A stretch of 64,000 nt of DNA from NCBI GenBank assembly GCA_023511295.1, contig JAIMBT010000003.1, positions 62,001 through 126,000 on the forward strand. Direction: 5' to 3'. Within the stretch, counting starts at the first letter, position 1, and every line of letters begins with the position of its first letter. Positions 13,269-16,929 of the stretch are shown here, one piece after another. Position numbers and translations under genes: made by a program. Origin of the DNA: Alicyclobacillus sp. GTDB lineage: Bacteria; Bacillota; Bacilli; Alicyclobacillales; Alicyclobacillaceae. A model generated the notes under the pieces. The model did no database searches and was not told the origin of the DNA. It saw only the letters and a program-made list of their open reading frames with translations.

Positions 13269-14207
13269 ATGATCTGGATTCACGTCGCCGCCGTTGGGCT
13301 CTCGCTTGCGGCGTTCCTCCTGTCTCTGCGCGTCATGCGCACAGGACTGGAAGGGCTGGGCCAAGCGCGATTGGCGAAACTGTTGCAGAGGTTTGTGCGA
13401 ACACCGACGCGCGGCATCCTCACGGGGACTGCCGTGACCGCCCTGCTCCAGAGCAGTGCAGCGGTAACGGCCATCGCCGTCGGACTCGTTGCCGCGGGCA
13501 CGATGACATTTCGCGACGCGGTCGGCCTCGTTCTCGGCGCCAACGTCGGTTCCACCGTGACACCGCAGCTGCTGACCCTAGACCTATGGGTGTTCGCCGT
13601 TCCCCTGCTCGTCCTCGGTGGAGTCGGCTTGTTCAGCCGAAGGCCGGGTGTGCGTCACGCGGCCATGGCGATGATTGGCTTCGCATCGATTTTCATTGCG
13701 CTGCAAGCGCTCTCCGCGGCGCTGGAGCCACTGACCGAACTGGGCCAGGTCGCCGCCGTGCTGCGCGCTGCCGGCAGCACGCCTGCTGTCGCCCTCCTGG
13801 CAGGGGTCCTGTGCAGCGCCGCGATGCAGTCGAGCACCGCGACGACTGTTTTGGCAATGGCGCTGACGAGCGACGGCGTGATTCCCCTGAGTGGCGCCAT
13901 CGCCATCGTGATTGGCGCGAACGTCGGGACGTGCCTGACCTCCGTCGTGGCCGCGCTCGGGCAGTCGCGCGAGGCACAGCAGGTCGCGCTGGCCCACGTG
14001 CTCCTGAACGTCGGCGGCGCCATGGCCTTCCTGCCTGCACTCGGCCCCTTCGCGAACTGGATGGCCGCGCTTTCGGCCGACCCGGGGCAACAGGTGGCCA
14101 ACGCCAACACCTGCTTCAACCTCATCTGCACCCTTGCCCTGTGGCCGTTCACGCGACCGTTTGCCGATTGCGTCCAGCGCCTCCTACCGAATCAGCGCCG
14201 GACCTGA
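13269..14207 (+). CDS. Na/Pi cotransporter family protein (YqeW-like)
   Basis: This 312-residue integral membrane protein belongs to the type II Na/phosphate cotransporter family. It shows the internal duplication of that family with the two QSS motifs LLQSSAAVTAI and AMQSSTATTVL, each followed by a GANVGxT/C motif. It is a short form without the C-terminal PhoU-like domain. The ATG has GGAGGTGCACC upstream. It stands alone on the plus strand between rpsU and mtaB, the place of yqeW in B. subtilis. Its last 24 bp overlap the end of the converging Nudix-DeoC gene. Confidence 0.9.
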   Translation: MIWIHVAAVGLSLAAFLLSLRVMRTGLEGLGQARLAKLLQRFVRTPTRGILTGTAVTALLQSSAAVTAIAVGLVAAGTMTFRDAVGLVLGANVGSTVTPQLLTLDLWVFAVPLLVLGGVGLFSRRPGVRHAAMAMIGFASIFIALQALSAALEPLTELGQVAAVLRAAGSTPAVALLAGVLCSAAMQSSTATTVLAMALTSDGVIPLSGAIAIVIGANVGTCLTSVVAALGQSREAQQVALAHVLLNVGGAMAFLPALGPFANWMAALSADPGQQVANANTCFNLICTLALWPFTRPFADCVQRLLPNQRRT

Positions 14208-15473
14208 ACTGGTGCCAAGCCGCGTGGCCCCGTAGCGCAGAAACTGCTCCGCCGCCCTGCGCGTGCGCACGCCACCCGCCGCCTTGACCCCACGGCCGCC
14301 CGCAAGGGATGCCATCAAGGCGACATCGGCCAGCTTGGCGCCGCTCGGTGCGAACCCCGTCGAGGTCTTGACGAAGTCTGCACCGGCTGACAGCGCGACG
14401 ACGCTCGCGACGGCCACTTGCGCGTACGTCAGGAAGTGGGTCTCGAGGATGACCTTCACCTGCACACCGCTCGTGCGGTGGGCGGACGCACAGACCGCCG
14501 CCACCCGCTCGTATACGCTCCAGATGTCGTCCTCCATCATCGATCCCACCGGGATCACCATATCGACCTCGCGCGCCCCAGCCCGGACGACGGCCTCTGT
14601 CTCGGCGGCCAGCGCCGCGGTGTCCGTCGCCCCGAGCGGGAATCCCACGACCACACACGGGATGACGTCGCTTCCGGCGAGGATGTCCGCCACGCGCCCG
14701 ATGTGTTGGGGGTTCACGCAAACCGCGCGAAACCGGTGCGCCAGCGCCTCGTGGGCCACCGCCTCAACGGCCAGCGCACTCGCCTCCGGTTTCAGGAGCG
14801 TGTGTTCCACGGCGGCACAGATCTGCGCTCGAGGGTCGGACAGCGGCCGCGGCCACTGTTCCGGGTGCACCTCCACGTCCGCCAAGGGCCACGCCGGCGC
14901 GACCGTACGAACCTCGTCCCGCACCGCGGACGCCAGTTGGCGGATGACCGGTGCCGCCTCCTGCCACAAATCGTCCCATGCGGCGGGGTCGTCGTCCGCC
15001 GCAACCGCGCGCAGGCGCCCCTCCAGGCCCCCTTCGTGCAGACGCCAGAGTACGTCCGCCTTGGCGAAGGCGAACCCCCAATTGGCGTACCCTGACGCCG
15101 CGTGCCGCTTGGCCGCTTCGTCCCAGGGAAGGAAGTACGCGGACCGCAGCTCCACCTCCTGCGGTACCGGGTCGACCGCGGCATCCACCGCCTCCATCAG
15201 GAACAGCCGAACCTGCTTGCGCACCGGTTGACCCGCGCGCGTTATCTCGTACTCGACCCGCGACAGCGGCTGCAAGATCCGCGCCTCGATACCGGTCTCC
15301 TCGGCAACCTCGCGAACGGCCGCCTGCTCCCACGACTCTCCCGGTTCGACATGGCCCTTCGGAAATGCCACGTGCCCGTAGGCATCGTCAATCATCAACA
15401 CTTCCCGAACGCCGCCTCGCTGTCGAACCACAAAGCCCCCGGCCGCGCGCTCCACGTTCCTGTTCATCGCCAT
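14184..15473 (-). CDS. Nudix hydrolase - deoxyribose-phosphate aldolase fusion protein
   Basis: A 429-residue two-domain protein. Residues 1-150 are a Nudix hydrolase with a complete Nudix box at 40-62 (G40, E46, R54-E55, E58-E59, G61), preceded by the HVAFPKGH segment typical of dinucleoside polyphosphate hydrolases. After a linker of about 55 residues, the C-terminal half is DeoC, which cleaves 2-deoxyribose 5-phosphate to acetaldehyde and glyceraldehyde 3-phosphate. It retains EHTLLKP, EVDMVIPVG, KVILET, the Schiff-base lysine in DFVKTSTGF and the second lysine in VKAAGGVRT. The ATG at 15471-15473 has GGAGGGGAA upstream. A separate deoC often follows mtaB in Bacilli, so the fusion is what is unusual. 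Confidence 0.92.
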   Translation of the reverse strand: MAMNRNVERAAGGFVVRQRGGVREVLMIDDAYGHVAFPKGHVEPGESWEQAAVREVAEETGIEARILQPLSRVEYEITRAGQPVRKQVRLFLMEAVDAAVDPVPQEVELRSAYFLPWDEAAKRHAASGYANWGFAFAKADVLWRLHEGGLEGRLRAVAADDDPAAWDDLWQEAAPVIRQLASAVRDEVRTVAPAWPLADVEVHPEQWPRPLSDPRAQICAAVEHTLLKPEASALAVEAVAHEALAHRFRAVCVNPQHIGRVADILAGSDVIPCVVVGFPLGATDTAALAAETEAVVRAGAREVDMVIPVGSMMEDDIWSVYERVAAVCASAHRTSGVQVKVILETHFLTYAQVAVASVVALSAGADFVKTSTGFAPSGAKLADVALMASLAGGRGVKAAGGVRTRRAAEQFLRYGATRLGTSSGPALIR

Positions 15474-15507
15474 CCCCGTTCCCCTCCAGTCCGCGTTGCA
15501 CGGCTCA

Positions 15508-16929
15508 TCACCCGTTCTGGCCCACCGCCAACGTGGGTGCCACATCCGCCCCGTCCGCGAACGTGACCTGACTGTCCAACGTGCCGTATTGAAATTCCGA
15601 TCCGGTCCGTTCCAACCGGACCCGCACCACTTCGCCCGTGAGTTGTTCCGGCGAAACCCCGGTTGGCACCGGAAACGCCACCTTCAGATAGGTATCCGTG
15701 TGCCCCATCAGCCAAAACCCAGCTGCACCGTCCGGCCCTTGCCCGGGCTCTGCGCCATGCTCCGGAAGGTGATACGGTTCCTCGGGAATCACCTCGACGA
15801 GACGACTGCGCCAGCCCGCAGCGTAGGCTGCGGTCAACTGTGCCGACAGGTCAATCATGCGCGCGGTGCGCGCCTCTTTCACCGCCGCATCCACCTGGTC
15901 CGGGAAACGCGCCGCAGGCGTGCCCGTGCGCGGCGAGTATGGGAACACGTGCAGCTGCGAAAACGCCAAATCCTGCACGAGGCGGTAGGTCGCTTCAAAC
16001 TGTTCATCCGTCTCCCCTGGAAAGCCGACGATGACGTCGCTCGTCACCGCCAGCCCAGGCAGGGCTTCCCGTAGCCGCCGCACCTTGTCGGCGTAATCCG
16101 CGACGCGGTAGTGTCGATTCATTCGCTTGAGCACGGCGTCGTGGCCCGCCTGCAGGGGGATGTGCAGGTGCGGGCAGACCTTTTTGGAGGCGTGCAGCAC
16201 CGCAATCAGCTCTTCGTCGATCTCACTCGCTTCGATGGAACTGATGCGCAGGCGGTACACTTCTTCTATCTGCTCCAGGTCCCGAATCAGGTGGGCGAGG
16301 CGGTAGCCGTCGAGGTCTGCGCCGTAACCGCCAGTGTGGATACCGGTGAGAATGATCTCCCGGTAGCCGGCCTTCGCAAGCTTGCGCGCTTGCGCCACGA
16401 CCTGTTCCGGCTTCCGGCTGCGGATGAGGCCGCGCGCGTACGGGATGATGCAGAACGTGCAGAAGTTGTTGCACCCGTCTTGAATCTTCAGGCTCGCTCG
16501 GGTCCGATCCGTAAACGACGGAACATCCATCTCTTCAAACGTGCGGGTCTTCAGGATGTTGCCGACCGAACGGATGGGATCCTGTTCCCGACGGACGGCC
16601 TCGACCAGTTCCACAATCTGCGTCTTTCGGTCGTTGCCCACGACCAGGTCGACGCCGGCGATGGCCGCCACTTCGTCTGGCCGAATCTGCGCGTAACACC
16701 CTGTCACCGCCACGGTGGCCTCCGGGTTCGTCCGGACGGCGCGGCGAATCATCTGCCGCGACTTCCGGTCTCCCGTGTTCGTGACGGTGCAGGTATTGAC
16801 CACGTACACGTCGGCCCGCTCTTCGAACGGAACCTGCTTGTACCCGGCCGCCTCAAACCGCCGCCAGATGGCCTCAGTATCGTAGAAGTTCACCTTGCAT
16901 CCCAAGGTGTGGAATGCCACGGTCGGCAT
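15508..16929 (-). CDS. mtaB: tRNA t6A37 methylthiotransferase MtaB
   Basis: MtaB is a radical-SAM enzyme that converts t6A37 to ms2t6A in tRNAs reading ANN codons. The 473-residue protein has an N-terminal domain with three cluster-binding cysteines (Cys11, Cys47, Cys78). The radical-SAM CxxxCxxC motif follows (Cys153, Cys157, Cys160 in DGCNNFCTFC), then a C-terminal TRAM domain. About 25 residues near 410-435 (a Pro/Gly-rich insertion) lengthen the TRAM region slightly. It follows rsmE by 3 bp, in the conserved dnaJ-prmA-rsmE-mtaB order. Confidence 0.97.
   Translation of the reverse strand: MPTVAFHTLGCKVNFYDTEAIWRRFEAAGYKQVPFEERADVYVVNTCTVTNTGDRKSRQMIRRAVRTNPEATVAVTGCYAQIRPDEVAAIAGVDLVVGNDRKTQIVELVEAVRREQDPIRSVGNILKTRTFEEMDVPSFTDRTRASLKIQDGCNNFCTFCIIPYARGLIRSRKPEQVVAQARKLAKAGYREIILTGIHTGGYGADLDGYRLAHLIRDLEQIEEVYRLRISSIEASEIDEELIAVLHASKKVCPHLHIPLQAGHDAVLKRMNRHYRVADYADKVRRLREALPGLAVTSDVIVGFPGETDEQFEATYRLVQDLAFSQLHVFPYSPRTGTPAARFPDQVDAAVKEARTARMIDLSAQLTAAYAAGWRSRLVEVIPEEPYHLPEHGAEPGQGPDGAAGFWLMGHTDTYLKVAFPVPTGVSPEQLTGEVVRVRLERTGSEFQYGTLDSQVTFADGADVAPTLAVGQNG

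Follow-up and report, generated by a model that had tools for sequence, protein, structure and literature searches.

The closest described relatives of the protein considered here are, for its C-terminal half, the class I deoxyribose-phosphate aldolases (DeoC; NCBIfam TIGR00126; PDB 8qps, 3r12 and 5dbu) and, for its N-terminal half, two Nudix hydrolases, Aquifex aq_158 (PDB 3i7u) and Thermus Ndx1 (PDB 1vc8), the solved chains of which comprise 126–134 residues and consist of the Nudix domain alone. A second domain behind the Nudix domain is found in the mycobacterial MutT1 and Rv2985, where it is presumably a histidine-phosphatase acting on the nucleotide products. The present protein shares this arrangement, whereas its second domain is an aldolase, which has no evident substrate in common with the Nudix domain. 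The title of one reference cited by PMC5389931 calls Ndx1 an Ap6A hydrolase, and the main text of PMC5389931 contains none of the words "aldolase", "deoC" or "fused". In L. sakei, the locus numbers of two Nudix genes and of deoC lie far apart, according to PMC3146418. A description of the Nudix–DeoC architecture was not found in the open-access literature searched. The sequences of such fused proteins are, we assume, surely already in protein databases, and the architecture is apparently undescribed but unspectacular, being built of known domains and of modest novelty.

The window analysed here, i.e., the whole stretch of 64,000 nucleotides from Alicyclobacillus sp. (genome G000), was compared with 41 genomes of its own family (f1), 18 genomes of a sister family (f2) and regions from other families. 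The family f1 is probably Alicyclobacillaceae, since a squalene-hopene cyclase fragment of one of its genomes, G151, is almost identical over 319 residues to the sequence of PDB 1gsz, the enzyme of Alicyclobacillus acidocaldarius. The locus has the following features, numbered from the first letter of the window.

14184..15473, minus strand: nudix-deoC fusion gene, 429 aa (open reading frame and domain matches; homologues in 41 of 41 f1 genomes, over the whole length in 40)
15481..15487, minus strand: GGAGGGG, resembling a ribosome-binding site, 7 bases 5' of the ATG at 15473 (putative, from the sequence)
15508..16929, minus strand: mtaB (tRNA methylthiotransferase), the upstream neighbour on the same strand as the fusion gene (Pfam Radical_SAM and UPF0004)
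13269..14207, plus strand: Na/Pi cotransporter family gene, convergent with the fusion gene (Pfam)
15099..15449, minus strand: Nudix hydrolase domain, residues 9–125 (Pfam PF00293, E 1.3e-18; AF2 model of residues 5–216 against 3i7u, Z 22.5)
15288..15356, minus strand: complete Nudix box, residues 40–62 (sequence; pattern Gx5Ex7REUxEExGU)
14823..15071, minus strand: long linker, residues 135–217, with predicted helices to about residue 191 and then a loose stretch (linker lengths; AF2)
14187..14822, minus strand: DeoC (deoxyribose-phosphate aldolase) domain, residues 218–429 (TIGR00126, E 5.1e-57; PDB 8qps_A, E 1.9e-46)
14805..14807, minus strand: E223 of EHTLLKP (D in all 132 separate DeoC rows compared, a biased control)
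14367..14369, minus strand: K369 (VKTSTGF), position of the Schiff-base lysine (alignments)
14283..14285, minus strand: K397 (GVKAAGG), position of the second active-site lysine (alignments)

The first-pass annotation had described this open reading frame as a single protein of 429 residues that carries a complete Nudix box and both aldolase lysines, all of which is borne out, and the frame is confirmed to be one intact, genuine fusion gene. As read from the sequence, the start codon is the ATG at 15473; a second in-frame ATG is reachable at 15545, within mtaB. The 3' ends of the fusion gene and the Na/Pi cotransporter gene share 24 bases (14184–14207).

All 41 f1 genomes have a match to the fusion, 40 of them essentially at full length and one (G010) only to residue 367, and 15 of the 18 f2 genomes carry it as well, with the mtaB motif upstream of most of the fused loci in both families. 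Together with fusions in other Bacilli families, this gives the architecture the spread that the first-pass annotation had proposed to look for. A frameshift or assembly error as the source of the fusion, the concern attached to the original reading, is ruled out by the open frame in all 41 f1 genomes, and a fusion peculiar to the window genome is ruled out by its presence across f1 and f2. The three remaining f2 genomes are G038 (81% complete), in which mtaB is followed only by the Nudix gene and a genome search found no DeoC, and G025 and G031, in which neither a Nudix nor a DeoC of this kind was found at the search level used. Outside Bacilli, no DeoC match was present in 11 regions examined among the Nudix matches listed (long-frame G591, G421, G787, G639, G685, G550 and G483; short-frame G616, G683, G662 and G769), a selection to which other listed long-frame matches, e.g., G726, G682 and G551, do not belong. 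In three of these regions from other Bacillota classes (L191, L192 and L193, from G787, G639 and G685, respectively), the related Nudix domain lies at about residues 385–505 of proteins of ~516–524 aa, behind a long N-terminal part without an identified domain. A further related Nudix match, G467:C1:1500208-1500519, contains one in-frame TGA, and the frame is open in G421, G505 and G591 of the same genus, the three others listed.

In other Bacilli, the same two domains are often encoded by neighbouring genes. Seven regions of other families, chosen partly for long open frames, include separate nudix and deoC genes in G041, G365, G269 and G158 and fusions in G111, G095 and G188. A further 40 DeoC regions were hand-picked among the matches listed, partly for long frames, so that their counts are not population rates; a Nudix gene lies directly upstream in 21 (gaps of -167 to +67 bases as called), three are fused (G076, G227 and G146) and 16 are without a Nudix gene there. 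The pairing occurs in 15 coded families beside the order of the window. Of the 24 paired or fused regions of 6.6 kb, 16 contain the mtaB motif, and mtaB is found 0.7 to 2 kb upstream in G041, G365 and G269, not always as the next gene. Kroppenstedtia guangzhouensis (L109) has a separate pair rather than a fusion, the two frames overlapping as called, with mtaB 1.6 kb upstream. The separate pairs are like the window in having related Nudix and DeoC proteins in the same order on the same strand, often with mtaB upstream, and unlike it in having two genes where the window has one. We also observed mtaB followed by a Nudix gene with no adjoining deoC in L230 (G038), L194 (G113) and L195 (G098), in which the Nudix gene looks like the more persistent neighbour of mtaB, as well as the reverse case, mtaB followed by deoC without a Nudix match, in L149, L151, L161 and L182.

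Trees of the Nudix domain (77 rows and 132 columns, with 35 of the 74 inner branches open) and of the DeoC domain (94 rows, with the degenerate row of G010 excluded) place the fused proteins relative to these pairs. The f1 proteins form one group in the Nudix and DeoC trees (96 and 100, both starred), as do those of f2 (88, and 100 starred). The G095 fusion and the separate pair from G237 form a group (96 in the Nudix tree and 97 in the DeoC tree, both starred) that lies within a starred set of separate pairs. The fused proteins of G076 and G227 likewise fall together (98 and 97, respectively, both starred), with separate pairs nearby, on unresolved forks. Parsimony requires seven changes between fused and separate states in each tree; the starred branches by themselves force only two changes for the fusions outside the order of the window. 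Because, in both trees, fusions from other families lie close to separate pairs, the merger of neighbouring genes probably occurred more than once, as judged from these alignments. An appearance of several origins could also arise if fused genes were split again later. That all fusions go back to one origin was considered and judged unlikely, given the grouping of G095 with G237 and the seven parsimony changes, with many forks unresolved.

For the N-terminal half, the nearest relatives are the same two proteins by sequence and by fold. A Nudix-profile search of the PDB returned first the Aquifex AP4A hydrolase (E 1.9e-27) and second Thermus Ndx1 (E 3.1e-23), followed by a mycobacterial 8-oxo-(d)GTP phosphatase and further Ap4A hydrolases. 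An AF2 model of residues 5–216 contains the Nudix fold, with block pLDDT of 90–98 over model residues 1–120, and in the fold comparison of this model 3i7u_A (Aquifex aq_158) ranks at the top (Z 22.5, rmsd 1.4 over 133 residues) and Ndx1 (1vc8) second (Z 20.7, rmsd 1.5 over 126 residues), ahead of the C. elegans Ap4A hydrolase (Z 19.3) and MutT1 (Z 18.7–19.5). Fold, complete Nudix box and best PDB sequence matches are shared with the Aquifex and Thermus enzymes, to which the fusion adds a helical linker and an aldolase. The Nudix box pattern is intact in all 62 distinct fused proteins (41 f1, 15 f2 and 6 other), the 79 fused rows collected including re-fetched copies of these. None of the NCBIfam Nudix equivalogs among those listed reaches its own cut-off on the fusion protein. 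These resemblances support, but do not prove, a Nudix half of the Ap4A/Ap6A-hydrolase type with a dinucleoside polyphosphate as substrate, and predicting a Nudix substrate from resemblance is unreliable. The first-pass annotation had suggested a dinucleoside-polyphosphate or an ADP-sugar hydrolase; the former agrees with the nearest relatives, whereas Nudix proteins that bind ADP-ribose come lower in the fold ranking (NrtR, Z 16.4; AtNUDT7, Z 16.2).

The C-terminal half scores above the curated cut-off of the deoC equivalog TIGR00126 (192.7 bits vs. 117.3, at residues 221–427), and Pfam DeoC (PF01791) matches residues 229–413. Like class I DeoC, this half has the complete domain, the two lysines (K369 and K397) and the aspartate D304 (REVDMV); K369 and K397 correspond to K167 and K201, respectively, of the E. 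coli enzyme. It is unlike class I DeoC in its position behind a Nudix domain, in the absence of the active-site lysines from 4 of the 62 fused genes, and in the first residue of the (D/E)HTLLKP motif. The EHTLLKP noticed in the first pass in place of DHTLLKP is real and is a family trait: this residue is E in 38 of the 41 f1 genes (two have D and one a gap) and D in 132 of 132 separate DeoC rows, which form a biased control since they were partly chosen by the aldolase lysine motif and include at least five re-fetched copies. The adjacent H is replaced by S in 11 of 41 f1 and 6 of 15 f2 genes. To judge from the alignments, these changes may alter the active site. Long open frames ending in DeoC were also seen in Candidatus Ozemobacter (495 aa, L138:3161-4648), a Chloroflexi MAG (515 aa, L084:3200-4747) and a Clostridiales MAG (345 aa, L131:3605-4642), the N-terminal parts of which are putative.

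Between the two halves, the linker was first put at about 55 residues, which is too short. The gap between the domain models has a median of 80 residues in f1 (74–98, n = 41; 83 in the window protein), compared with 17 in f2 (16–18, n = 15) and 21 in the other fusions (11–26, n = 6). The AF2 model of residues 5–216 shows, next to a confident Nudix domain, helices at 130–147, 150–160 and 163–191, with linker block means of 66–86 that drop to 48 where the last helix ends; the fold comparison of this model scarcely reaches past model residue 144. A model of the whole protein has helices at 130–159 and 163–191, with block means of 83–92 for residues 151–190, and a poor Nudix part, because its alignment was without Nudix rows. 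The extra linker of f1 is thus predicted to be mostly helical. Among the three parts, the linker has the highest pN/pS in nine of nine intact pairs, the f2 linkers being only 16–18 codons long.

The two active sites are not conserved together. Both DeoC lysines are kept in 58 of the 62 distinct fused genes. In the other four, the two positions hold I and M in G001, S and R in G032, T and Q in G036, and a gap and V in G010, while the Nudix box is kept in all four of these proteins. The losses in G032 and G036 may share one event, which would make about three events. The dead DeoC domains remain in long open frames, the total length of which is either normal or somewhat reduced; in G010 (L198), a fused frame of 403 aa is retained with a DeoC half that is barely recognisable.

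The lysines have been lost mostly in genomes that carry a second deoC. In the window genome, deoB and pdp are present on other contigs and the fusion is the only DeoC match, so the fused DeoC is most likely a working deoxyribose-phosphate aldolase, as far as gene content can tell. With the caveat that some genomes are incomplete and copies may be missed, a second deoC was found in 5 of 41 f1 genomes (G001, G016, G023, G241 and G322) and in three fused f2 genomes (G026, G032 and G036). By coordinates, it adjoins deoB and pdp in G016, G032 and G036; in G001, it consists of two pieces at contig ends, one of which adjoins pdp. A dead fused DeoC occurs in three of the eight order members with a second deoC vs. 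one of the 48 without (Fisher p 0.0075, relatedness ignored). The exception among the 48 is G010 (94% complete), in which deoB and pdp gave only weak sub-threshold matches and genome searches found no working DeoC. Such a pattern would be seen if the fused DeoC were an ordinary aldolase serving deoxynucleoside catabolism, free to decay once it is replaced or no longer needed. However, the fused DeoC is intact beside a second copy in five of the eight (G016, G023, G241, G322 and G026). In G025 and G031, deoB-like and pdp genes are present and no deoC was found, showing that the pathway does not always demand a DeoC.

The first-pass annotation had taken the fusion to suggest a coupled step, in which the Nudix half might clean up or generate a phosphorylated (deoxy)sugar for the aldolase; a compound resembling deoxy-ADP-ribose would be one possible source. 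The pairing of the two genes in many Bacilli families, the probable occurrence of more than one fusion and the 58 of 62 proteins with both halves intact are what such a coupling would lead one to see. However, the Nudix half persists where the aldolase active site has been lost and, in G010, where deoB and pdp are missing as well, which disfavours a coupled step. In addition, G038 retains the Nudix gene with no DeoC found, and two f5 genomes (G113 and G098) have mtaB followed by nudix and no deoC in the 9-kb region, though a DeoC lies elsewhere. With a Nudix fold nearest to Ap4A/Ap6A hydrolases rather than to the ADP-ribose-binding proteins, we give the coupled step very little credence.

A looser partnership, without channelling, would have the Nudix half clear damaged or excess deoxynucleotides and the aldolase clear deoxyribose phosphate from their breakdown or from DNA repair, the two being expressed jointly. 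The location of the pairing outside a deo operon and the presence of MutT1 enzymes among the fold neighbours are consistent with this proposal. However, dinucleoside-polyphosphate hydrolases match best, MutT1 trailing them by about 1 Z unit or more, and the Nudix half outlives DeoC in G010 and G038, so that we consider this partnership unlikely.

The persistence of the four dead domains as open frames raises a different proposal, namely, that the DeoC half serves the Nudix half structurally or as a sensor and that its catalysis is dispensable, the dead domains being a scaffold or a deoxyribose-5-phosphate sensor. The rates of the two halves, in comparisons in which most synonymous sites are saturated, bear on this proposal in both directions. 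Comparison of G016 (intact) with G001 (dead) gives a dN/dS of 0.12 in DeoC and 0.08 in Nudix, the former within the range of intact f1 pairs (0.04–0.15) despite the loss of the lysines; the branches of G001 and G016 are 0.33 vs. 0.039 in the DeoC tree and 0.31 vs. 0.21 in the Nudix tree. Most of the G001 DeoC domain is thus conserved with its lysines gone, which leaves room for a scaffold or a sensor. In contrast, the two dead proteins of G036 and G032 differ with a pN/pS of 0.56 in DeoC and 0.24 in Nudix, the reverse of all four intact f2 pairs, in which DeoC is slower (DeoC/Nudix 0.14/0.28, 0.20/0.23, 0.07/0.17 and 0.32/0.39). This contrast holds for f2 only: DeoC is the slower half in just one of the five intact pairs from f1 (0.07/0.14) and the faster half in the other four (0.28/0.18, 0.07/0.02, 0.27/0.25 and 0.37/0.25). 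For G010 vs. G007, the values are 0.63/0.32, over 125 aligned DeoC codons. Since the lysines are kept in nearly all fused proteins and the Nudix gene of G038 manages without a DeoC, we regard a DeoC half with dispensable catalysis as distinctly improbable. A more speculative version, which we hold to be highly improbable, is that the aldolase half doubles as a sensor or scaffold, binding deoxyribose 5-phosphate or holding an oligomer together and tuning the Nudix half, and that only this role is left in G001, G010, G032 and G036. If this were true, these four proteins would be pseudo-aldolases regulating a nucleotide hydrolase.

The explanation that we prefer, and think probable though far from certain, is that the fusion carries two independent enzymes on one chain, derived from the merger of neighbouring, probably co-translated genes. 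Pdp and DeoB would make 2-deoxyribose 5-phosphate from deoxynucleosides, and the C-terminal half would cleave it to acetaldehyde and glyceraldehyde 3-phosphate, with K369 forming the Schiff base and K397 assisting. For its part, the N-terminal half would act as a metal-dependent Nudix hydrolase that cleaves a dinucleoside polyphosphate or a related nucleotide. The halves would have common expression and perhaps common assembly, with no intermediate passed between them. We note four observations that count against two independent enzymes. First, a functional link would also produce the pairing in 15 coded families. Second, the fused frame is present in all 41 f1 genomes and the four dead DeoC domains have not been deleted. 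Third, the DeoC half of G001 still has a dN/dS like that of intact f1 proteins. Fourth, the fused DeoC stays intact in five of the eight genomes that have a second deoC, and G025 and G031 do without any deoC found.

The fusion is fixed in all 41 f1 genomes examined, and automatic annotation could label the protein as the hydrolase only or the aldolase only. Lineages with one dead half amount to a natural experiment on whether fused genes have a metabolic step in common, an assumption which is often used for function prediction and which appears not to hold here.
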